DNA of 47,669 nucleotides, taken from NCBI RefSeq assembly GCF_028292805.1, contig NZ_JAQGLS010000031.1, forward strand, positions 1 to 47,669. Direction: 5' to 3'. Below, piece after piece: positions 3,099-43,440 of this stretch; position 1 is the stretch's first letter, and each line of letters opens with the position of its first letter. The translations under genes were made by a program, and so were the position numbers. Origin of the DNA: Ramlibacter sp. Its GTDB lineage: Bacteria; Pseudomonadota; Gammaproteobacteria; Burkholderiales; Burkholderiaceae_C. Under the pieces are notes generated by a model. The model was not told the origin of the DNA, searched no databases, and saw only the letters and a list, made by a program, of their open reading frames with translations.

Positions 3099-3719
3099 AT
3101 GGACTACCCAGGCAACCTCTTCGTCGTGGCGGCACCCAGCGGGGCCGGCAAGTCCAGCCTGGTGAAAGCCCTGCTGGAGCTCGACTCCCACGTGCAGCCT
3201 TCGGTGTCGCACACGACACGGCCGCCGCGCGGCCAGGAAAAGCACGGGCGCGAGTACTTCTTCACGTCCACCCCCGAGTTCGACTCCATGGTGCTGGGCG
3301 ACGCCTTCGTCGAGTGGGCGCACGTGCACGGCCACCGCTACGGCACATCCAAGAAGGCGATCGAAGACCGCATCACCGGCGGCGCCGACGTGATCCTGGA
3401 GATCGATTGGCAAGGCGCGCTGCAGATCAAGCGCATCTACCCGAACGCGGTGCTCATTTTCATCCTGCCACCGAGCTGGGAAGAACTGCGCTCGCGGCTC
3501 GAGCGCCGCGGCGAAGACACGGCGGAAGTGATCGAGACGCGGCTGGTCAACGCCGCCAATGAGCTTTCCCAGGCCAAGGAATTCGACTTCGTTATAATCA
3601 ACGAGTTATTTGAGCGCGCGCTTTTCGACCTGAAAGCGATCGTTCATGCCCAACGGCTCAAGTTCCTGTCGCAGCGCCGCCTTCGCGCCGACACCTTCCG
3701 TGCGTTGGGCATTCTCTAG
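3099..3719 (+). CDS. gmk: Guanylate kinase
   Basis: Phosphorylates GMP to GDP with ATP, essential for guanine nucleotide supply. The 206-aa length is typical. The P-loop GAGKSS lies at residues 15-20, followed by the GMP-binding region ([16 protein letters not shown]) and the [14 protein letters not shown] segment. It lies 48 bp after yicC and 18 bp before rpoZ; gmk-rpoZ-spoT is the classical order and places the enzyme beside the (p)ppGpp synthetase that uses its product pool. Confidence 0.98.
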
Positions 3720-33141: not shown

Positions 33142-35433
33142 TCAGGTGGCGGCTCGCAGCGTCTTTGCCGCCTCGACCATGTTGGCCAATGCGGGCAGGA
33201 CCTCCGACCACTGGCGCGTCTTGAGGCCGCAGTCCGGGTTCACCCACAGGCGGCTCGCGGGGATGCGCTCGGCGGCCTTTTGCATCAGCGCCACGATGTG
33301 CTCCTGCGTAGGGATGTTCGGCGAGTGGATGTCGTAGACACCGGGGCCGATCTCGTTCGGGTACTTGAAGTCATCGAAGGCGTCGAGCAACTCCATGTCG
33401 GAGCGCGAGGTTTCGATCGTGATCACGTCCGCATCCATGTCGGCAATGGACGCGATGATGTCGTTGAACTCCGAATAGCACATGTGCGTGTGGATCTGCG
33501 TCTCATCCGCCACGCCGTTGGCGGTGATGCGGAAGGACTCGATTGCCCAGTCGAGGTAGGTCTTCCACTGCGACCTGCGCAGCGGCAGGCCTTCCCGCAG
33601 CGCCGCCTCGTCGATCTGGATCACGCGCACGCCCGCCTTTTCCAGGTCCTGCACCTCTTCGCGGATGGCCAGCGCCAGTTGCTTGCAGGACACCGAGCGC
33701 GGCTGGTCGTCCCGCACGAAGGACCAGTTCAGGATCGTCACCGGGCCGGTCAGCATGCCCTTCATCGGCTTGGTGGTGAGCGATTGCGCGTACCGGGTCC
33801 ACTCCACGGTCATCGGGCGGGGCCGGGTGATGTCACCGAACAGGATCGGCGGCTTCACGCAGCGCGAGCCGTACGATTGCACCCAGCCGAACTGGCTGAA
33901 GGCGTAGCCGTCCAGCTGCTCGCCGAAGTACTCCACCATGTCGTTGCGCTCGGCCTCGCCGTGCACCAGCACGTCCAGGCCCAGGGCCTCCTGCGCGCGC
34001 ACGCAGCGGGCGATCTCGCCCTGCATGGCGGCCTTGTAGTCCGCCTCGTCGAGCGCGCCGGCCCTGAACTGGCTGCGCGCATGCCGGATCTCTGCCGTCT
34101 GCGGGAACGAGCCGATCGTGGTGGTCGGAAATTCAGGAAGCCGCAACCTGGCAGCTTGCAGCGGCGCGCGCTGTGCGTACCCGCTCTTGCGTTGTCCCAG
34201 GCTGTCGTCGAGCTTGGCGATCGCCGCCTTCACGAGCGGGTTGTGGACGCGCGGCGACGCGCGGCGCGCGTCGAGTGCGGCCTTGTTGGCGGCCAGCGCT
34301 TCGCTGGCGGCCTCGCGCCCCTGATTCAGCGCAACCGCCAAGACCTGCAGCTCGTCCAGCTTCTGCAGTGCATAGGCGAGCCAGGACTTGATCTCGGGGT
34401 CGAGCTTCTCCTCGCTGGCCAGGTCGACCGGGACATGCAGCAGCGAGCAGGAAGGCGCAAGCCACAGGCGGTCACCCAATCGTCGCGCGAGCGGCTCGAC
34501 CCAGTCGAGGACGGCGTCGAGATCGGTTTTCCAGATATTGCGGCCGTTGACCACGCCCAACGACAGCACCTTGTGCGGCGAAAGCAGGTTCAGCAGCGGC
34601 ATGACGTCTTCGCGCCCGTTGACGGCGTCGACGTGCAGGCCGGCCACCGGCAGGTTGGCCGCAAGGTACTGGTTCTTTCCCAGCTGCCCGAAGTACGTTG
34701 CCAGCAGCAGCTTGACGCGGGAGCCTTTGAGGTCGTGGTAAGCCGTGTTGAAGGCGTGTTGCCAGTCGGCATCGAATTCGGTGACCAGCAGGGGCTCGTC
34801 GACCTGCACCCATTCCACGCCGTGGGCCGCCAGCGTGTCCAGCAGCTGCGCGTACGCCGCAAGCAGCCGCGGCAGCAGTGCCAGCTTGTCGGAGCCGTCC
34901 TTGGTCTTGCCGATGGACAGGTAGGTCACCGGGCCGATGATCACCGGCTTGGCCTTCACCCCCGAGGCCCTGGCTTCGGCCAGGTGCTCCAGCAGACGCG
35001 AGGCGTCCAGCCTGAACTCGCTTTGGGCGGTGAATTCCGGGACGATGTAGTGGTAGTTGGTGTCGAACCACTTGGTCATCTCGCCGGCGGCGACGCCACC
35101 GCAGCAATCGCCGTGGTCGTCGCTCCCCTGGGCCGAGCGGCCGCGCGCCACGCGAAAGTAGTTGTCCAGCGCATCGCCGTGGAAGCCGCGCACGCGCTCG
35201 GGCAGGTTCCCCAGCGCGAAGCTCATGTCCAGCACTTGGTCGTAGAACGAGAAATCGCCGACTGGCGCCAGGTCGAGGCCGGCCTGGTGCTGCCAGTGCC
35301 GTGCGCGGAGCTGGGCGCCAAGCGCCTGCAACTCCTCGCGCGAGGATGTGCCCTTCCAGTAGGACTCGAGCGCGAACTTGAGTTCACGCTTGGCGCCGAT
35401 GCGGGGAAAGCCGAGATTGTGGGTTTGGACCAT
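33142..35433 (-). CDS. metE: Cobalamin-independent methionine synthase
   Basis: Transfers the methyl group of 5-methyltetrahydropteroyltri-L-glutamate to homocysteine. 763 aa, full length; two barrels beginning [21 protein letters not shown]. The zinc ligands are visible in the C-terminal half: His and Cys in HTHMCYSEF, Glu in ITIETSRSD and Cys in NPDCGLKTR. The start at 35433 ([11 protein letters not shown]) is the conserved one. It is divergent from metR over 103 bp, the classic arrangement for MetR-controlled methionine synthesis. Confidence 0.98.
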
Positions 35434-35536
35434 GGGTTGCCTTCGGATGCCGTGTTGTGCGAGTGGCGGATCGTAAAAGCAGCAAGCCATGAAGTAAAAT
35501 GGTCTTCTTTCAACAATCAATGAGATCTGCTCATAC
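35434..35536. promoter_or_regulatory. metE-metR divergent regulatory region
   Basis: The 103-bp gap has AT-rich patches. An inverted repeat GAAG-N9-CTTC (35491-35507) gives the 17-bp span usual for LysR-family T-N11-A boxes; a perfect TGAAN5TTCA MetR box is not seen. No B12 riboswitch is visible. Confidence 0.5.
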
Positions 35537-36436
35537 ATGCTGGAGCGCATCCACTTGGCGATCGTGCGTGAAGTCGCCCTCAACGGCTCACTTACCGCCG
35601 CAGCGGGCAAGCTGCACCTGACGCAGTCCGCGCTGAGCCACACCATGCGCAAGCTGGAGCAGCAACTGGGCACGGACATCTGGCTGCGTGAGGGGCGCAG
35701 CCTGCGACCGACGAAGGCGGGGGACTACCTGCTTTCCGTCGCCAACAGGGTGCTGCCGCAACTCGACGTCGCCGAGGAGCGGCTGGCGCAGTACGCCCAG
35801 GGCCAGCGCGGCTCGCTTCGCATCGGCATGGAATGCCATCCCTGCTACCAATGGCTGCTCAAGGTGGTGGCGCCCTACCTCGCCGCGTGGCCCGACGTCG
35901 ACGTCGACGTCAAGCAGAAATTCCAGTTCGGCGGTATCGGGGCGCTCTTCGCCTTCGAGATCGACCTGCTGGTGACGCCCGATCCGCTGTTCAAGCCCGG
36001 CCTGCGCTTCGAGCCCGTCTTCGACTACGAGCAGGTGCTCGTTGTCGGTGCGCGGCATGCGCTGGCCGGGGCGGCCTACGTCAAGCCCGCGCAGCTCACC
36101 GGGGAAGTTCTCATCACCTATCCAGTGGCAGCGGAAAGACTGGACATCTACAACCAGTTCCTGATGCCGGCGGGCATCACGCCCAAACGCCACAAGACCA
36201 TCGAGACCACCGACATCATGCTGCAGATGGTGGCCAGCGGCAGGGGGGTCGCGGCGCTTCCGCGCTGGTTGGTCGAGGAATACACGGACAGCCTGGAGAT
36301 CGTTCCGATTCGGCTCGGCAGCCGTGGCATCCGCAAGCAGATTTTCCTGGGCGCCAGGGAGAGTGATGGCGCCGTCGACTACCTGAAGGCCTTCATTGCC
36401 CTAGCTCGCGATCAGGATGCCGTCAAGGCGATGTGA
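35537..36436 (+). CDS. metR: LysR-family regulator MetR
   Basis: 299 aa activator of methionine genes that senses homocysteine. The N-terminal helix-turn-helix ([37 protein letters not shown]) and the effector domain ([13 protein letters not shown] being a MetR hallmark) match MetR and not other LysR proteins. Transcribed divergently from metE. The gene's 3' end overlaps a small minus-strand frame (36412-36546) but the codon pattern belongs to metR. Confidence 0.96.
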
Positions 36437-36546
36437 CGCGGGCTGCGGCTCGCGGCGGTCGTGACGCCGCTGTCCGAGCGCGAGCAGGTCGTGCTGGCGG
36501 CAGCCGGTGCCGCAAGCGCGCTCCCATCGATCGCTTGCAACTTCAT
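36412..36546 (-). CDS. Short frame coupled to the SDR gene; likely truncated
   Basis: 44 codons (MKLQAIDGSALAAPAAAST…), whose ATG overlaps the SDR stop as ATGA, like the other junctions of this operon. It runs antisense into the metR 3' end. It may be the 5' stub of a gene that was cut by rearrangement, or chance. No family recognised. Confidence 0.25.
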   Translation of the reverse strand: MKLQAIDGSALAAPAAASTTCSRSDSGVTTAASRSPRHIALTAS

Positions 36547-37316
36547 CGCATCACCCTTCCACCATCCACCAGCAACACCTGGCCGGTCACGAACGCGCTC
36601 GCCGGCGAAGCGAGGAACACCACGGGGCCGGCGACGTCTTCGGGCCGCGCCAGCCGGCGCAGCGGCGTGGCGGCCATGATCGACTCCCGGAACGCCGCCC
36701 GGGTGGCGGCGCTGCCTTCCGTCGGATGCACCAGGCCCGGCGCAACACAATTCACGCGCACCCCGAGCGGCCCGGCTTCCGCCGCCAGCTGCCGGCTGAA
36801 GCCGACCAGCGCCGCCTTGGCCGTGCCGTAGTCGTGGTATGGCACGACCGGGTCCTCCACCAGGTCGCTGACGATGTTGACGATGGCGCCGCCGCGGCCC
36901 GCCAGGTGCGGCAGCACCGCCTGGCACAGGTGGAACGCGGCGCCGACCGAGCCCTCGTACTGGCGCAGGAAGTCGGGCCAGGCCAGCCCGGCCAGGTCCT
37001 TGCGCCGTTCCGGATCGAAGCTGTAGGGCGCGAACGCGTTGTTCACCAGCACGTCGACGCGGCCGAACGCCCGCAGCGTCCGCTCCACCAGCGCCACCGC
37101 CTCCCCGGGCACCGTCACGTCGGCCTGCAGCGCCTGCGCCTCTGCGCCCGAATCTTCACAGGCACGCACCACTTCGCGCGCGGCCTCCCCGTTGCGCAGG
37201 TAGTTGACGCCGACCGTGGCCCCGCGCGCGGCGAAGGCGCGCGCGATCGCCGCCCCGATGCCGCGCGAGGCCCCGGTGACCAGCACCACCTTGCCGGCGA
37301 ACTCGCCCGCGCTCAT
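36543..37316 (-). CDS. Short-chain dehydrogenase/reductase
   Basis: 257 aa, classical SDR: cofactor motif TGASRGIG at residues ~13-20, NNAF, active-site Ser in NIVSD, Tyr and Lys in YGTAK, and the C-terminal family end VLLVDGGR. FabG-like; acts on a carbonyl/alcohol pair with NADP(H) or NAD(H). The start is in an ATGA overlap with the binding-protein gene. Its place as last full gene of a TPP-riboswitch operon with LuxE and LuxC suggests it reduces the aldehyde made by LuxC, which is inference. Confidence 0.9.
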   Translation of the reverse strand: MSAGEFAGKVVLVTGASRGIGAAIARAFAARGATVGVNYLRNGEAAREVVRACEDSGAEAQALQADVTVPGEAVALVERTLRAFGRVDVLVNNAFAPYSFDPERRKDLAGLAWPDFLRQYEGSVGAAFHLCQAVLPHLAGRGGAIVNIVSDLVEDPVVPYHDYGTAKAALVGFSRQLAAEAGPLGVRVNCVAPGLVHPTEGSAATRAAFRESIMAATPLRRLARPEDVAGPVVFLASPASAFVTGQVLLVDGGRVMR

Positions 37317-38296
37317 GGCATCCCCGGCAGCAGGTCGGCGGCCACCACCTGCCGCATGTCGATCGCGCGGCGCACCAGTCCGAGCTGCCGGTACACGTCG
37401 GCGGCCTGCTGCAGCGAGGCGACATCCATCGCGCCCAGCCCGGCCCGCCGGGTCACCCCGGACACGCTGGCTGCATTGCGCAGCCGGATGACATCCAGCG
37501 CCAGCGCGGGGTCGGTGCCGTCGATGGCGCGGGTGGCAGCCAGCCGCGCCGCTTCCGCGGGCTGCGCCATCATCCAGGCGGCAGCGTCGCTGTAGCCGCG
37601 CAGGAAGCGGCGCAGGGCCTGCTTGCGCTGTCGGTAGACCTCCTCCCGCACGACGAAGAGATCGCTGGACACATGGAGGTACTTGCCCACCTCGATCACC
37701 TGCACGTCGCCCAGGCCGCGCCGCCGGCCGATCGCCAGGCCGGTGTCGGTCGCCGCGGTGGCGTCCACCTGCCCCTGCAGCAGCGGCGCGAAGTTGAGCA
37801 GGCCGGTCACCACCACCGTCACGTCCGATTCGCGCAGCCCGGCCTGGTGCAGCAGCACCTGCAGGTTCTGCCGGGTGCCGCTGGCCAGGCTGTAGACACC
37901 GATCTTCTTGCCCTTGAGGTCGGCCGGCGTGCGGATGCCGCTCGTGCGCAGCGCGACCACATTGAAGACGTTCTGCGGATAGATGTCGTAGATGGCCCGC
38001 AGCCGCTCGCCCTTGTCCAGCGCGGCGAACAGGGAGCCCGGGTCGGTGAAGGCGACGTCCGCCCGGCCGCCAAGGATGTTGCGGATGGCGTCGCCACCGC
38101 CGGCGCCGGGCACATACGCCAGCTCGATGCCCTGGGCCCGATAGAAGTCTTTGTCGGCATGCACCAGCAAGGGCATGACCTCGGTAATGGCCTTGCTCCA
38201 GCCGGCGACGGTGACCTTCTCCGCGCGGGCTTGCCCCCAGGAAAGAGCGGGAAGGGATGCGGCAGCGGCGAGCAGGTGGCGGCGAAGCAGTGGCAT
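37313..38296 (-). CDS. ABC transporter solute-binding protein, NMT1/THI5-like
   Basis: 327 aa with a Sec-type signal peptide (RRHLLAAAASLPALSWGQARAE). The mature part shows the SsuA/NMT1/THI5-like fold: KAITEVMPLLVHADKDFYRAQGIEL, GRADVAFTDPGSLFAAL, DLKGKKIGVYSL, VVVTGLLNFAPLLQGQVDATAATDT. Members bind sulfonates, nitrate, or thiamine pyrimidines such as formylaminopyrimidine (ThiY). The TPP riboswitch upstream of the operon favours a thiamine-precursor ligand. It ends in ATGA overlap with the SDR gene; the permease ends 8 bp before it. Confidence 0.87.
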   Translation of the reverse strand: MPLLRRHLLAAAASLPALSWGQARAEKVTVAGWSKAITEVMPLLVHADKDFYRAQGIELAYVPGAGGGDAIRNILGGRADVAFTDPGSLFAALDKGERLRAIYDIYPQNVFNVVALRTSGIRTPADLKGKKIGVYSLASGTRQNLQVLLHQAGLRESDVTVVVTGLLNFAPLLQGQVDATAATDTGLAIGRRRGLGDVQVIEVGKYLHVSSDLFVVREEVYRQRKQALRRFLRGYSDAAAWMMAQPAEAARLAATRAIDGTDPALALDVIRLRNAASVSGVTRRAGLGAMDVASLQQAADVYRQLGLVRRAIDMRQVVAADLLPGMP

Positions 38297-38304
38297 GGCA
38301 GCGA

Positions 38305-39057
38305 TCAGGAAGTGGAAGAATAGGGACGCAGCAGGCGCCGCTCCAGCAGCAGCGCGGCCTGGTAGGCACACAAGCCCAGCAGGCAGACCAGCACCAGCAC
38401 GGCGAACATCAAGGGCGTGTCCATGCTGCCCTGGGCGCCGATGATGAGCGCGCCAAGGCCCTGGCTGGTCCCGATGAACTCTCCGACGACCACGCCGACC
38501 AGCGCCAGCACCACCGCGATGCGCAGTCCCGCAAGGATGGCCGGCAGCCCCGTCGGCAGCTTCAGGCGCCACAGCGTCTGGGCGCGGCTGGCGCCCAGCA
38601 TACGGAACAGCTCCAGCCGCTCCGGCGCCACCTGCGCCAGCCCGGTGAGCGTGTTCTCCATCAGGGGAAAAAAGCAGATCAGCGCGGTCACCACCACCGT
38701 TGGCAGCAGCCCGAAGCCGAACCAGACGATGAAAAGCGGCATCAGCGCCAGCTTGGGAACGACCTGCGTGACCACGACATACGGCAGCAGCAGGCGCCGC
38801 AGTCCTGCATGCTCCGCCAGCACCACGCCAGCGGCGAAACCGAATGCGCTTCCGGCCACCATGCCGAGCAGCAAGCCCAGCGCGGTGGCACGCAGGTGCG
38901 GCCAGAAGAAGCCGGAGGCCAGTCCGCTCCATAGCGCTTGCAGCACCGCGCTTGGCGGCGGAAGCACCAGCGCCGAGATGGCGAACCCGCGGGCAGCGAG
39001 CTCCCATAGCAGGAGCAGGCCGGCCGGCAGCAGCAGGCTGGCGGCGCGCGTCTTCAT
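38305..39057 (-). CDS. ABC transporter permease, SsuC/TauC/ThiX type
   Basis: 250 aa with about six transmembrane helices; the EAA loop is seen in FRMLGASRAQTLWRLKLPTGLPAILAGLRIA. The N-terminus has WELAARGFAISALVLPPPSAVLQAL, typical of SsuC-type permeases. Its start overlaps the ATPase stop by ATGA. Works with the ATPase (39054) and the binding protein (37313). Confidence 0.93.
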   Translation of the reverse strand: MKTRAASLLLPAGLLLLWELAARGFAISALVLPPPSAVLQALWSGLASGFFWPHLRATALGLLLGMVAGSAFGFAAGVVLAEHAGLRRLLLPYVVVTQVVPKLALMPLFIVWFGFGLLPTVVVTALICFFPLMENTLTGLAQVAPERLELFRMLGASRAQTLWRLKLPTGLPAILAGLRIAVVLALVGVVVGEFIGTSQGLGALIIGAQGSMDTPLMFAVLVLVCLLGLCAYQAALLLERRLLRPYSSTS

Positions 39058-39803
39058 GCGGGCGCTGCCTCGCTCGCCGCAACGGCTTGCCCAAGTGCCC
39101 CGCGCACCTGGGCGCAGGCGGCGCCGAAGGCCCCAGTGTCGCGCTGCGCGCCGGGCGGGCTCACGATGGTGCGCACCAGCCGACCGCCCGCGAGGACCGA
39201 GACCCGGTCGCCCAGGAACACCGATTCACCGACGTCGTGCGTGACGAACAGCACGGTCGTGCCACGTGCCTTCGCCAGCTCCCGCAGGTCGCACTGCAGC
39301 TCCTCGCGCGTGAGCGCATCGAGCGCGGCGAAGGGTTCGTCCAGCAGCAGCAGCGCGGGCGCCGTCACCAGGGCACGCGCCAGTGCCACGCGGCTTTGCT
39401 GGCCCCCGGAGAGCTGGCGCGGATAGCGTTCCGCCAGGCCTGCCAGGCCGAGCCGGGCCAGCAGGGCTTGCGTTGCGTGCGCATCGGCGGGGGTCGGCTG
39501 GCGCTGCAGGGACACGGGCAGCAGCACGTTGTCGCGCACGCGCAGCCATTCCAGCAGCGTCGGCGCCTGGAACACGAAGCCGACTTCCCCCGGGCCGAGA
39601 GTGGCGCCGCCCCGCACCTCGATCCGGCCGGCGCTGGGCGCCAGCAGCCCGGCGGCCAGCTTCAGCACCGTGGTCTTGCCGCAGCCGCTGCGACCCACCA
39701 GGCAATGAATCTCGCCGGCGGCAAGTGCGAGGTCGATCCCCTGGACCACCGGCGGGGTGCCGGGGTACTGGAAGGCGACATCCCGCAGCGCAAGGAAACT
39801 CAT
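39054..39803 (-). CDS. ABC transporter ATP-binding protein, SsuB/TauB/ThiZ type
   Basis: 249 aa; Walker A VGRSGCGKTT, Q-loop FVFQAPTLLEWL (the LLEWL motif is typical of this subgroup), signature LSGGQQSRVALARALV, Walker B LLLLDEPFAALD and switch His FVTHDVGE. The start lies in an ATGA overlap with the LuxC-like stop and the stop in an ATGA overlap with the permease start. Confidence 0.94.
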   Translation of the reverse strand: MSFLALRDVAFQYPGTPPVVQGIDLALAAGEIHCLVGRSGCGKTTVLKLAAGLLAPSAGRIEVRGGATLGPGEVGFVFQAPTLLEWLRVRDNVLLPVSLQRQPTPADAHATQALLARLGLAGLAERYPRQLSGGQQSRVALARALVTAPALLLLDEPFAALDALTREELQCDLRELAKARGTTVLFVTHDVGESVFLGDRVSVLAGGRLVRTIVSPPGAQRDTGAFGAACAQVRGALGQAVAASEAAPA

Positions 39804-41260
39804 GGCAGATCTTCCTGCGCATAGGGAGCGAGCCGATCGGCGGCGCGCTCGGTGGCCGCATCGATTTCGACCATGCGGACCAGGTCGGCCAGGCTGAAGC
39901 GGCCGTCGTGATGCCAGCCCGGCTCGGGCTGCGCCATCGCCCCGAGCGGCGCGATGCGCGTGACCCCGGCGCGGCCCAGCAGTTCCGCCAGAGGGTACAG
40001 CGCCTCGGGCGTGGTCGCCACCGCCACGGTCTGCAGCACCGGCGCGTGCGGCGCGAGCAGGGGCAGGACATCTTCCAGCGCATTCACCGCACTCACGACG
40101 ATGCAGCGTTGCCCGGGCGTTGGCCGCACCGGGTGCGGCGCATCCGCGTACACCACGGCCCAGCCGCAGCCCTCCTCGCCCAGCAGCTCCAGGCTGTCGT
40201 TCCACTCGGCGGCCTGCCGCCAGCTGGCGACCGCCGTGGCGTCCTCCAGTGCCAGCTCGCGGGACGGGTGGCGATGCTGCAGGTTCGCGAGTTCGGCGGC
40301 CAGATAGCGGGCGAAGGCGCGCGGTGATACCTCGCCTCCCCGCTCTACGTAGATGACGTGCGGCGAATAGCAACCCTGCTGCTCGTGGCGCGCCAGGTCC
40401 CGCGCGGCGAGCCTGGCGCTGGCCCCGCCACGCTGGCGGTCGAGCGCGGCTCGACCGACCAGCGCCACCCCCAGCTTGTGCCCGTAGGCCAGGAACCGGG
40501 TGGTGACGGGCACACGCTCGCGCAGCTCGCGCAAGGCCGCATTGCCGCCGTAGGCGAGCACGGTTTCCGCCTCGCGGAACAAGGTGGCGTCCATGCCCGC
40601 GTCGCCGCCTTTCCACCAAACCACCGCCAGGCAGCCGGCCCAGGGCGGATGGAGTTCGGCCAGCAGGCGCGCGAAGACGCTCGCGAACACGGGCTCGGCG
40701 CTCGGCAGCTTGCCGATGTTGCCGGCCTTCACCAGCAGGCCACAGGCCAGGCTCCACAGCGGCAGCCCCGGCACGTTGCCGGCCCAGATGTGCGCCAGCA
40801 GCCCAGGTCCGAGGGCGCGGACGGACCCGCCCTTCACCGCCGGCTGAAACCCGTCCAGCACCTTGGGATTGGCGAAGTCCTGCGCGACGAAGCGGCGCAG
40901 CTGCGGACCGCGAAAGCCCTGCAGGTAGGTGCTCAGGCCCAGCCGCACCAGTTCAGCGTCGAAACCGGTCACCAGCGGCAGCAGGTCGTCGAGCTCGCGG
41001 CGGCGCGGGTCGGCCGGGTCGAGCAAGCGCGCGACGGCGGCGTCCAGCACTTGGACGACCGCGTCCACCGGCATCGGCTGCAGCCGCTCGCCTGCCGCGG
41101 CGCGAACGGAGTGCGCCAGCGCCCGCAGCTGCGCCTCAGCGAGCACCGGCACCTCCACCCGCAGCTGGCGACCGCGGGCGCTGAACGGCAGCACGTGCCA
41201 GCGCACGTCGGCGGCGTCCACGCCCGGCAGGTGGCCGGCTCGCCAGGTGCGGGGAGTCAC
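39800..41260 (-). CDS. LuxC-like acyl reductase
   Basis: 486 aa, LuxC family (NADPH-dependent reduction of an acyl thioester to an aldehyde). Visible are the ALDH-fold features: nucleotide-site segments KAGNIGKLPSAEPVF and GGNAALRELRERVP, catalytic Cys297 in QQGCYSPHVIYVE, and the C-terminal GVTRIAPLGAMAQPEPGWHHDGRF motif of LuxC. The Cys position matches LuxC. No luciferase (luxAB) is in the window. The GTG start at 41260 sits in a GTGA overlap with the LuxE-like stop. It likely takes the acyl group from LuxE; the acyl chain is unknown. Confidence 0.9.
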   Translation of the reverse strand: MTPRTWRAGHLPGVDAADVRWHVLPFSARGRQLRVEVPVLAEAQLRALAHSVRAAAGERLQPMPVDAVVQVLDAAVARLLDPADPRRRELDDLLPLVTGFDAELVRLGLSTYLQGFRGPQLRRFVAQDFANPKVLDGFQPAVKGGSVRALGPGLLAHIWAGNVPGLPLWSLACGLLVKAGNIGKLPSAEPVFASVFARLLAELHPPWAGCLAVVWWKGGDAGMDATLFREAETVLAYGGNAALRELRERVPVTTRFLAYGHKLGVALVGRAALDRQRGGASARLAARDLARHEQQGCYSPHVIYVERGGEVSPRAFARYLAAELANLQHRHPSRELALEDATAVASWRQAAEWNDSLELLGEEGCGWAVVYADAPHPVRPTPGQRCIVVSAVNALEDVLPLLAPHAPVLQTVAVATTPEALYPLAELLGRAGVTRIAPLGAMAQPEPGWHHDGRFSLADLVRMVEIDAATERAADRLAPYAQEDLP

Positions 41261-42351
41261 GGGTTGGCCTCCAGGAACTCCTGCATCGCCAGCGAGCAGC
41301 CCTTGGCCTCGGCGCCTTCGGCGCGCCCCAGCAGGAGGAAGCCGCCGTCCACGGCCACGCCGACGTCCTCGGTCAGGATGGTGGTGGCCGAGTTGAAGTT
41401 GGCCAGGTCGCAATGCGCCAGCAGCCCGCGCTCGCCCCGCGCGAGCTCGCGCCCGGTCAGCGGCTCGAGCACGCGGGTGCGGACCCAGTGGGGGCCGGAC
41501 TTGACGGCGGGCAGCGTCGCATTGCCGTTGTCGTAGAACTGCGAGCTCAGCTCGGTCATGCCGTACATGTTGATGCAGCGGGCGGCGGGCACCCCGAACG
41601 CGCGCTCCAGGCCGTCATAGAAGGCCTGCAGCTCCAGCGTGCGCGACTGGCCCTTGTAGCCGCCGGTGTCGAGGATGCGACTGCCCTCGGGGAGGGCAAA
41701 CCGGCGGCCGGTGGCGGCCAGGGCATCCAGCAGGTGGACGAAGCTGTAGCTCGCGCCCAGCATGGCAACGGGCTGCCCCGCAACCACGGCGTGCCCCAAC
41801 GCGGCGCACACCCGCGCCACGTCCAGGCCGCCCGGGCCCACGCAGTGGCCCCCGCCTTCAACCCCGAAGTGACGCGCGGCCTGCGACAGGTAGCGCGCCA
41901 GCGATGAATCAGGCAGCTGCTGCTCATCGGGAAAAAGGATCAGCATGGCGAGCGGTCCGCTGCCTTGCATGAAGCGCCGCGCGAAATTGCGCCGCATCGA
42001 GCGGTCCCAGACCTCCAGCGTCGGATGGTGGTTCCGGCCCCTGACGTCGGCGCGCGTGGTGCCGCTGGTCGTGAAGACGCGCTCGCATTCAGCGGGGGGC
42101 AGGCAACTGAGCGTCGCGTCCTTGAAGGCGCTGATCGGCACCGGCGGGATGTCGCGCCAACTCGCCACGCGCCGCGGCGTGGTTCCGCGGCGCTGGCAGA
42201 AGCGGCGGTACGCCGCATCCTGCTCGTACTGGAAGGCAAACAGCGCGGCGGCCAGTGCATCGAACTCGTCGTCGGTGCAGCCATCCTGAGCGAGAAAGGA
42301 AAGGAGCCGCTCGACCAGCTGTTGCATCTGCGGCGGCAGAACGGTTTTCAT
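41257..42351 (-). CDS. LuxE-like acyl-protein synthetase
   Basis: 364 aa, adenylate-forming family LuxE, which activates a carboxylic acid to acyl-AMP and then captures it on an internal Cys. FTTSGTTRADVRGR is the AMP motif, MYGMTELSSQFYD the aryl/acyl-adenylate motif, and the acceptor Cys352 in AKGCSLAMQEF lies 12 residues from the C-terminus, as in luminous bacteria. Start in ATGA overlap with thiD. Function with LuxC: carboxylate to aldehyde. That it is translationally coupled to thiD is highly unusual. Confidence 0.9.
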   Translation of the reverse strand: MKTVLPPQMQQLVERLLSFLAQDGCTDDEFDALAAALFAFQYEQDAAYRRFCQRRGTTPRRVASWRDIPPVPISAFKDATLSCLPPAECERVFTTSGTTRADVRGRNHHPTLEVWDRSMRRNFARRFMQGSGPLAMLILFPDEQQLPDSSLARYLSQAARHFGVEGGGHCVGPGGLDVARVCAALGHAVVAGQPVAMLGASYSFVHLLDALAATGRRFALPEGSRILDTGGYKGQSRTLELQAFYDGLERAFGVPAARCINMYGMTELSSQFYDNGNATLPAVKSGPHWVRTRVLEPLTGRELARGERGLLAHCDLANFNSATTILTEDVGVAVDGGFLLLGRAEGAEAKGCSLAMQEFLEANP

Positions 42352-43229
42352 GGCGAGGGGCGCATTTGCATGGGCTGCGGCGCATGCGAGTGGTTCAGGG
42401 GGCCGCTGCCTGCGCCCATGCGCGCGCCGGCTCCTGCCGTCAATGCCGCGCGGACGTAGGCGTGGGCCGCTCGCACCGCGGCGGCCAGCTCGCAACCCAG
42501 TGCGAGATGCGCCGCGATGGCGCTGGAGAGGGTGCAGCCGGTGCCATGGATGTTGGGCGTGGCGATGCGCGGATGGCGCAGCCACAAAGGCCTGGCACCC
42601 GGGATCAGCAGCAGATCGCTGACGATTCCGCCGGCAAGGTGCCCGCCCTTGACCAGCACCGCGCGGGCGCCGCGCTCCAGCAGCTCCCGGGCGGCGGCTT
42701 CCATGTCAGCCTCGGTGCGAAGCTGGCGGCCGACCAGCAGGCCGGCTTCATCCAGGTTGGGGGTGACCAGCAGGGCCCGCGGGAACAGTTCACGCACGAG
42801 TGCATCGACCGCCTCCGGCTGGATCAGGCGGTCACCGCTGGCGGCCACCATCACCGGGTCCAGCACCACTGTGCCCATGCAGTGGCGGTCCAGCGCGGCA
42901 GCCACGGTCTGCACCACCGGTGCGGAATGCAGCATGCCGATCTTCACCGCATCGACTCCGATGTCCTCAGCCACCGCATCGATCTGGTCGGCCAGGAACT
43001 CCACCGGCACGGCGTGAATCGCGCGCACACCCAGAGTGTTCTGCGCGGTGAGCGCCGTCAGCGCCGTCATGCCGAAGCAGCCCAGTGCGGCAAAGGTCTT
43101 GAGGTCGGCCTGAATGCCCGCGCCGCCACCGGAATCCGAGCCGGCGATGGCGAGCACGCGCGGATAGCGGGTGCGAATTTCGGCTTCGCCCGCGGGCGGG
43201 GCGATGGGTGCGGGGGCGGATTGCTTCAA
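42348..43229 (-). CDS. thiD: HMP/HMP-phosphate kinase
   Basis: Phosphorylates hydroxymethylpyrimidine twice, giving HMP-PP for thiamine synthesis. 293 aa; N-terminal VLAIAGSDSGGGAGIQADLKTFAALG and C-terminal HGTGCTLSSAIAAHLALG, the anion-hole GTGC motif. The start is a TTG at 43229: the codon is preceded by a near-perfect AAGGAGG at eight bases, no in-frame ATG fits, and the conserved core begins 25 residues later. A TPP riboswitch stands 60 bp upstream. The gene is followed by luxE with ATGA overlap. Confidence 0.95.
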   Translation of the reverse strand: MKQSAPAPIAPPAGEAEIRTRYPRVLAIAGSDSGGGAGIQADLKTFAALGCFGMTALTALTAQNTLGVRAIHAVPVEFLADQIDAVAEDIGVDAVKIGMLHSAPVVQTVAAALDRHCMGTVVLDPVMVAASGDRLIQPEAVDALVRELFPRALLVTPNLDEAGLLVGRQLRTEADMEAAARELLERGARAVLVKGGHLAGGIVSDLLLIPGARPLWLRHPRIATPNIHGTGCTLSSAIAAHLALGCELAAAVRAAHAYVRAALTAGAGARMGAGSGPLNHSHAPQPMQMRPSP

Positions 43230-43290
43230 CGGACCTCCTTCGTGACTGGTGCTCCGAAGGAAACGGTCCACCGGCCATGGGGCCGTATGG

Positions 43291-43371
43291 GCTGCTCTCC
43301 TTACGCCGGTATGAGCCGGTTCAAGTTCTCGGGTCTGGATCTCAGCACGCCAACGCGCACACCCCGGAGCG
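43291..43371 (-). promoter_or_regulatory. TPP (THI-box) riboswitch
   Basis: On the minus strand the THI-box elements appear in order: CCGGGGTG near the 5' end, TGCTGAGA (43340-43347), ACCCGAGAACTTGAACCGG, and CGGCGTAAGGAGA at the 3' end. These are the pyrimidine-sensor GCTGAGA and the pyrophosphate-sensor helix. Its position before thiD and the operon 36543-43229 implies repression of the whole operon when thiamine pyrophosphate is abundant. Confidence 0.95.
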
Positions 43372-43440
43372 ATGTCCATTGTGACACGGTCGCGCACCGC
43401 GGCCGAAGGCCGCAGCATCCGGAGGCGTAGGTCCGAACCT

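Follow-up and report, generated by a model that had tools for sequence, protein, structure and literature searches.

Why do relatives of LuxE and LuxC, the fatty acid reductase proteins of luminous bacteria, lie behind a thiamin pyrophosphate (TPP) riboswitch, in one operon with thiD, an ATP-binding cassette (ABC) importer and a short-chain dehydrogenase/reductase (SDR)? This question is raised by a stretch of 47,669 nucleotides from Ramlibacter sp. (contig NZ_JAQGLS010000031.1 of assembly GCF_028292805.1), hereafter called the window, in which this operon is present as first noted. The answer that we consider likely is that the operon serves the TPP-repressed salvage of an oxidised thiamin pyrimidine, where the substrate, the direction and activities of the enzymes and the switching are what we infer. 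The substrate is probably 4-amino-2-methylpyrimidine-5-carboxylate, the acid that corresponds to hydroxymethylpyrimidine (HMP). After the riboswitch, all on the minus strand, follow thiD, a luxE-like gene, a luxC-like gene, the genes of an ABC ATPase and a permease, the gene of an NMT1/THI5-type binding protein and the SDR gene.

43281..43376, minus strand: TPP riboswitch aptamer (RF00059), 53.7 bits; homologous riboswitches at 85 of 87 cassette loci
43231..43269, minus strand: predicted hairpin (putative expression platform) that would pair the thiD Shine-Dalgarno sequence and contains the conserved TTCGGAGC
42348..43229, minus strand: thiD, HMP kinase / HMP phosphate (HMP-P) kinase, TTG start; TIGR00097 311.8 bits, cut-off 204.95
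41257..42351, minus strand: luxE-like acyl-adenylating acyl-protein synthetase; Pfam LuxE 61.7 bits
39800..41260, minus strand: luxC-like acyl thioester reductase, GTG start; Pfam LuxC 263 bits
39054..39803, minus strand: ABC importer ATPase; Pfam ABC_tran
38305..39057, minus strand: ABC importer permease; Pfam BPD_transp_1
37313..38296, minus strand: periplasmic binding protein of the NMT1/THI5 type, with an N-terminal export signal recognised by eye; Pfam NMT1 149 bits
36543..37316, minus strand: SDR; Pfam adh_short_C2

The THI-box that the initial annotation placed ahead of thiD corresponds to the RF00059 match at 43376-43281, and the gene overlaps that it described from thiD through the permease and between the binding protein and the SDR were all found by coordinates, namely ATGA at thiD/luxE, GTGA at luxE/luxC, and ATGA at luxC/ATPase, ATPase/permease and binding protein/SDR. 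The 8-base gap from permease to binding protein is the sole non-overlapping junction. The TTG start of thiD is preceded by AAGGAGG, and each of the seven proteins scored above its Pfam cut-off (Phos_pyr_kin, LuxE, LuxC, ABC_tran, BPD_transp_1, NMT1 and adh_short_C2).

Proposed pathway

According to our proposal, the ABC importer would bring in a small acid of the thiamin pyrimidine, in all likelihood 4-amino-2-methylpyrimidine-5-carboxylate. LuxE would activate the carboxylate with ATP and hold it as a thioester on C352, and LuxC would receive the acyl group on C297 and, with NAD(P)H, reduce it to the aldehyde. The SDR would then convert the aldehyde to the alcohol HMP, which ThiD would phosphorylate to HMP diphosphate (HMP-PP) for ThiE. 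The chemistry of the single steps is familiar: LuxE and LuxC lead from a carboxylate to an aldehyde, and an SDR can take an aldehyde to an alcohol. Because the only CH2OH group of HMP is at C5, the acid yielding HMP would be the 5-carboxylate named above, and its reduction to CH2OH at this position gives exactly the substrate of ThiD, which supports a pyrimidine acid. Neal and Pearson (1964, cited in PMC7780320) reportedly found this acid in rat urine as a product of thiamin metabolism. The aquatic pyrimidine vitamers named in the excerpts of two accounts are HMP, aminomethylpyrimidine (AmMP) and formylaminomethylpyrimidine (FAMP), with no pyrimidine acid among them (PMC10881298, PMC5635689), so that these excerpts point to no natural source of the acid for bacteria of soil and water.

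Distribution of the cassette

LuxE was searched for in 399 genomes of the order, and 8 of these, including the window's, matched at 1e-10 or better; the seven relatives share 61-71% identity with the window LuxE and all keep the order luxE-luxC-ATPase-permease-binding protein-SDR (7/7). A TPP riboswitch lies upstream in 8/8 of these cassettes, above the gathering score in 4/8. Of the eight, only the window and one relative have thiD at the head. In a contig collection of GTDB genomes, 346 stretches encode a relative, and the best 80 of the 346 were compared. These come from Ramlibacter, Polaromonas, Variovorax, Comamonas, Curvibacter, Acidovorax, Bordetella, Achromobacter, Limnohabitans, Thauera, Azospirillum, Geobacillus and others. 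The six genes stand in order in 75/80 loci, and the other five (L055, L056, L060, L061, L064) run off the contig end. With our own covariance model, for which 11 riboswitches were used (8 belonging to cassettes and 3 others of the window's genome), a riboswitch was found ahead of the cassette in 85/87 loci, which are the best 80 plus the seven order relatives and include at least one pair (L015, L023) from the same contig. In the remaining two loci, L031 and L081, the sequence begins so near the genes that a riboswitch would not be visible.

The same pattern was seen outside the order. Among 398 genomes of the phylum, 17 matched the LuxE profile, 6 strongly (>540 bits) and 11 weakly (48-85 bits). 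The strong matches comprise four in the window's and same-family genomes, one in another order of the class (G789) and one in another class (G603). Both outsiders carry a TPP riboswitch, and thiC is present in both genomes; the 11 weak relatives showed no TPP riboswitch within 1.5 kb on each side. In the Bacilli, the class of the Geobacillus genome, 398 genomes gave 13 LuxE matches, of which 11 were strong (402-611 bits, including Geobacillus). A riboswitch was present at all 11 strong loci, in 8 of them within short loci and in 3 only in longer stretches, and at neither of the 2 weak ones within 1.5 kb on each side. Because those three riboswitches appeared only in longer stretches, about 15 kb around 4 of the 13 weak relatives were searched with our own model, again with no riboswitch; the other 9 were seen in short loci only. 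The Geobacillus cassette riboswitch scores 63.6 bits. Contamination of this record was considered and rejected, as the composition of the cassette equals that of its surroundings and the flanking genes look, by eye, like ordinary ones of Bacillaceae.

Plasmids carry the cassette as well. In PLSDB, 27 plasmid records encode LuxC: 13 from Pantoea, 9 from Azospirillum and one each from Priestia, Pseudomonas, Lactiplantibacillus, Levilactobacillus and Niallia. Six of the 27 were examined and a riboswitch was found in all six, in five at the Rfam gathering score and in the Priestia plasmid by our own model. The co-occurrence of riboswitch and cassette, suggested as a check in the initial annotation, was thus borne out in 85/87 loci, in 11/11 strong Bacilli loci and in 6/6 plasmid loci examined. 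Two plasmids from Korean food, of Lactiplantibacillus plantarum (L157) and Levilactobacillus brevis (L158), have the arrangement riboswitch-NCS2 permease-luxE-luxC-SDR with four identical protein accessions, and this identity indicates that the unit is mobile. The LuxE search of phage records gave no match at 1e-10. On a Niallia megaplasmid (L160), two tandem TPP riboswitches (3363-3659) precede thiW-NCS2-luxE-luxC-SDR. Further TPP riboswitches lie near the cassette on the opposite strand in L028 (19142-19253, minus), L074 (2242-2351, minus) and L088 (8827-8947, minus).

thiD is a less regular partner, being found at the head of the cassette in 29/80 loci. The operon described in the initial annotation therefore stands as a unit for the six genes from luxE to SDR, which recur in this order, and not for thiD, which is not a fixed member. 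That annotation had also regarded a gene set found mainly without thiD or riboswitch as evidence against the pathway; most of the loci indeed have no thiD at the head, while the riboswitch is nearly always there. The thiD part carries little weight, because the riboswitch is constant and thiD is a general thiamin gene able to lie elsewhere.

LuxE, LuxC and the SDR

The proteins of the cassette retain the residues that the pathway would need. C352 of LuxE is invariant in 91/91 rows of the alignment and aligns with the cysteine of KGCSL in the LuxE chain of 7xc6, the LuxC-LuxE complex of Photobacterium, and C297 of LuxC, also aligned with 7xc6, is invariant in 89/89 rows. We take C352, near the LuxE C-terminus, to be the acyl-accepting cysteine and C297 to be the catalytic cysteine of LuxC. 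The model of LuxC (predicted local distance difference test, pLDDT, 90.6) has LuxC of 7xc6 (7xc6_A) as its best fold match, with a template modelling (TM) score of 0.81. An SDR gene was seen in every compared locus long enough to show it.

Do these enzymes simply make long-chain aldehydes from fatty acids, for luminescence or as in flagellar glycan islands, with the riboswitch standing before them by accident? Their family membership agrees with this, as do the public names, fatty-acid ligase and bioluminescence reductase; on the plasmids LuxE is annotated as 'long-chain fatty acid--CoA ligase' or 'acyl-CoA synthetase', LuxC as 'acyl-CoA reductase' with the term bioluminescence, and the SDR as 'SDR family oxidoreductase' or '3-oxoacyl-ACP reductase'. 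Moreover, luxC and luxE are described in flagellar islands of Aeromonas, in the part of that account available (PMC7874193). In terms of sequence the window LuxE and LuxC are clear members of their Pfam families, far below the cut-offs of the luminescence enzymes: LuxE does not reach the NCBIfam equivalog for long-chain LuxE (NF052244, 70.5 bits vs 550), nor LuxC that for long-chain LuxC (NF052251, 72.7 bits vs 750). The riboswitch, on the other hand, precedes every close relative examined that has enough contig and was found near none of the 13 distant ones (1.5 kb each side), which speaks against an accident, and a fatty acid substrate appears extremely improbable.

Importer and its exchange

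In most loci compared, the importer is an ABC system of the NMT1 type. The model of the window binding protein (pLDDT 91.1) has the FAMP-binding protein 3ix1 as its first-ranked fold match in the PDB, followed by the thiamin-bound 4nmy, a Bordetella protein without stated ligand, SsuA and THI5. The modelled fold is in keeping with a pyrimidine ligand and is not proof of one.

The importer is also the part of the cassette that changes. No importer lies between luxC and SDR in L126, L148, L150 and the Pantoea plasmid L155, and luxE is immediately preceded by an NCS2 nucleobase permease gene in L153, L154, the Niallia locus L160 and the plasmids L157 and L158 of lactobacilli. Between L154 and L157 the NCS2 permeases share 51% identity, and the permease gene overlaps luxE in L153, L154 and L157. 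On the LuxE tree the NCS2 rows L153 and L154 are sisters, and three importer-less rows require two changes. In the loci long enough to be judged, luxE-luxC-SDR is the constant core and the importer is exchangeable. NCS2 permeases transport single nucleobases, and an ABC importer that is missing or swapped for such a permease points to a nucleobase-like substrate.

The loci with luxE, luxC and SDR and no importer between them (L126, L148, L150, L155) would also suit a repair function, in which HMP or some other common pyrimidine vitamer enters through the importer, and LuxE, LuxC and the SDR repair the acid formed by over-oxidation of HMP or its aldehyde inside the cell. Yet the importer genes of the window overlap luxC and each other, and a permease gene of another family directly precedes and overlaps luxE in L153, L154 and L157. 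These overlaps indicate that uptake and reduction go together, and we regard repair as unlikely.

Which half of thiamin

The presence of thiC and thiG was compared in 51 genomes with the cassette (8 from the order search and 43 of the 80-locus records not labelled as metagenome-assembled). thiG was found in 51/51 and thiC in 38/51; the 13 genomes without thiC include that of the window, and since thiG is always kept, the half that is lacking in them is the pyrimidine. The window's genome, an assembly of 329 contigs with 95% completeness, shows no thiC. It encodes thiG and thiM, one thiO-like and two thiE-like proteins, a second ThiD and a permease of the cytosine/purine family; these genes form three groups, each preceded by a TPP riboswitch, and the second thiD lies beside thiM and thiE. 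On the contig L013 of this genome, a TPP riboswitch and the cytosine/purine-family permease gene (960-2406) are found beside thiM-thiE-thiD, which stand behind another riboswitch.

The retention of thiG was followed further among genomes without thiC. It was kept in 29/31 with the cassette vs 8/38 without (Fisher p 8e-10, descent ignored), and within Ramlibacter in 24/26 vs 3/19 (p 2e-7, descent ignored). The 31 are the 13 genomes above plus 18 more cassette-bearing Ramlibacter genomes without thiC. The 38 comprise all 19 of Ramlibacter and, from the order sample, 19 out of 52; in Ramlibacter a strong LuxE match was taken as the cassette. The direction is the one predicted by a supply of pyrimidine and opposite to that predicted by a supply of thiazole.

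Other thi genes have been joined to the cassette. In the Ramlibacter type, thiD stands at its head and the SDR is followed by a thiE-like gene, while in the Limnohabitans type thiD adjoins the cassette; an open reading frame (ORF) like the ThiE-like one of L031, on which Pfam was run, occurs in 27 of the 88 loci compared, 3 of them of the Limnohabitans type. In the Bacilli locus L151 the order is riboswitch-thiO-thiG-thiF-luxE-luxC-ABC-SDR. The ThiE-like proteins of L031 and L014 (7137-8195) are longer at the N-terminus by about 130 residues, a part with no Pfam name; the gene is behind the SDR in L031 and before thiO and thiG in L014. A YkoE-like gene (PF09819) is divergent in L150, behind its own riboswitch.

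The route from importer through LuxE-LuxC and SDR to ThiD, as first outlined in the initial annotation, is thus supported by the constancy of the riboswitch, the pattern of thiG and thiC and the recruitment of thi genes, and further by the NCS2 replacement of the importer in some Bacilli and on lactobacillus plasmids and by 3ix1 as best fold match.

Would another part of thiamin fit as well? On the thiazole side, 4-methylthiazole-5-acetate could be imported and reduced to hydroxyethylthiazole (HET), which would likewise need reduction from acid to alcohol, and thiamin catabolites with an acetate side chain exist. thiM lies behind the cassette in L146 and thiW ahead of it in L160. Against this, thiG is present in 51/51 cassette genomes and thiC is missing in 13, thiD and not thiM heads 29/80 loci, thiG and thiF directly precede luxE in L151, and the operon of L160 already carries thiW, presumably a thiazole transporter. 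Alternatively, an acid of the whole vitamin (thiamine acetic acid) could be reduced back to thiamin, to which the thiamin-bound 4nmy, the second-best fold match of the binding protein, would correspond. With such a substrate thiG and thiE would no longer be needed, yet 51/51 genomes contain thiG and ThiD and ThiE have been recruited in one clade, and the NCS2 permeases that replace the ABC importer are of a family that carries single nucleobases. Because thiG was never missing in the 51 genomes, we rate the thiazole acid as quite unlikely and the whole-thiamin acid as slightly less probable still.

Several observations weigh against the salvage of a pyrimidine acid or lessen the force of the evidence for it. 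The genes behind the SDR in L146 (Bacilli) and before the cassette in Niallia L160 belong to the thiazole side, and in fold the binding protein resembles alkanesulfonate- and taurine-binding proteins almost as much as it does ThiY and THI5. thiC is kept in 38/51 cassette genomes, so that the pathway would usually be an addition and not the sole source of pyrimidine, and the riboswitch-controlled cytosine/purine-family permease of the window's genome could import HMP directly. Although thiD at the head goes with missing thiC (11/13 vs 2/38, Fisher p 1e-7), it is a trait of a single clade on the LuxE tree (1 change, 1 independent pair), and the association is for this reason not independent evidence. 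Of the 18 cassette-bearing Ramlibacter genomes added to the thiG comparison, 16 gave a thiG match, two of these partial, and 2 gave none; in this genus thiG can lie within 10 kb of the cassette (e.g. G401), so that both may be kept or lost as one block. Finally, thiC is missing in 26/32 Ramlibacter genomes with the cassette and in 19/27 without it, the remote match G815 being counted among the latter, a similar loss either way that the cassette does not explain.

That the cassette replaces thiC was considered and rejected, since 38/51 genomes keep thiC and Ramlibacter mostly lacks it in either case. In the order sample, 45/346 good genomes were without thiC; the comparison of 13/51 cassette genomes with 43/338 others of the order (p 0.03) draws on mixed samples and is given no weight. 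Within Ramlibacter, the genus of G399, 45/59 genomes had no thiC match and 18 of these 45 also had no thiG match, so thiamin dependence seems to be common in this genus.

Riboswitch and leader

The window riboswitch was found with E 1.4e-8 in a search of 8.5 kb, 0.6 bits below the Rfam gathering score of 54.3, and is therefore unlisted at the gathering threshold; cassette riboswitches score up to 62.4 bits in the order and 85.0 bits in the Niallia plasmid. A leader element, TTCGGAGC, is found 3' of the aptamer in 65/79 leaders vs 11/1580 shuffled leaders, and is present together with its complement GCTCCG in stem P1 in 64/79. It was not found in the Limnohabitans, Azospirillum and Geobacillus leaders among the 79 compared. 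Within 60 bases a CGAAGG-like sequence able to pair with TTCGGAGC follows in 48/79, and in the window this partner is the Shine-Dalgarno sequence of thiD. The element could pair alternatively with the 5' strand of stem P1, which suggests a translational OFF switch: binding of TPP would close P1 and free TTCGGAGC, which would then cover the Shine-Dalgarno sequence and stop translation. The window hairpin has -30 kcal/mol and z -3.55 in the 65-base leader. Folded together, the whole leader gives z only -0.63 and the aptamer is not the minimum fold, and for this reason the mechanism, with TPP binding and repression, is put forward only as a proposal.

A MetE-like gene (minus strand) and a LysR-type regulator gene (plus strand), both named by eye, adjoin the operon at 33142-36436 and are divergent.

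Comparison with known systems

The closest known system is the salvage by TenA and YlmB with the importer ThiXYZ, which leads from FAMP and AmMP to HMP and resembles the proposed route in its damaged pyrimidine, its ABC importer, its NMT1-type receptor and its end point HMP. TenA and YlmB strip formamido or amino groups by hydrolysis, while the enzymes of the cassette are predicted to be an ATP-driven carboxylate reductase and an SDR. TenA was found in only 24/51 cassette genomes, and neither among the seven window proteins nor, at E 1e-10, in the window's genome (YlmB was not searched for). FAMP and AmMP are counted as salvageable vitamers in the available part of PMC10881298. The LuxC-LuxE fatty acid reductase of luminous bacteria (7xc6) shares the LuxC fold and both catalytic cysteines; LuxE and LuxC of the cassette differ in being distant in sequence and in their setting, which comprises a TPP riboswitch, an importer and an SDR, and no LuxA or LuxB is among the seven window proteins, to which that search was confined. 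THI5/NMT1, the HMP-P synthase, has the same fold and Pfam family as the binding protein. The cysteine-rich stretch CCCFC, which we take to be the THI5 motif, falls opposite a gap of the binding protein in their alignment, and given its export signal and its place in an ABC operon the protein reads as a receptor and not as a THI5 synthase. CytX/NCS1, YkoEDC and ThiW are TPP-controlled vitamer transporters; they are alike in the riboswitch-controlled uptake of thiamin parts and differ in that they only transport and do not reduce.

No description of LuxE or LuxC with thiamin or a TPP riboswitch, or of pyrimidine-acid salvage, was found in the open-licence literature searched, and one elsewhere is possible. 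Vitamer salvage controlled by a TPP riboswitch is a known purpose, and the parts are of known kinds; the reductive route with its use of LuxE-LuxC is, as far as found, new.

Significance of the cassette

Taken over all loci, it is fairly probable, and held by us a little less firmly than the function of the operon itself, that the cassette represents a widespread and mobile vitamin B1 salvage, in which LuxE-LuxC and an SDR, with interchangeable importers, turn 4-amino-2-methylpyrimidine-5-carboxylate back into HMP, and which occurs in Pseudomonadota and Bacillota, including food lactobacilli, and feeds bacteria without thiC. If so, a reductive branch would be added to vitamin B1 salvage, and relatives of LuxE and LuxC would gain a role apart from fatty acids and light, so that the names fatty-acid ligase and bioluminescence reductase would need correcting. 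The pathway would offer a possible fate for the pyrimidine carboxylate that was reported in 1964 to be a thiamin metabolite, and it would be worthwhile to measure this acid, as a vitamer, in soil, in water and in fermented food. It would also explain how some bacteria without thiC make thiamin, the oxidised pyrimidine being a nutrient that supports them.

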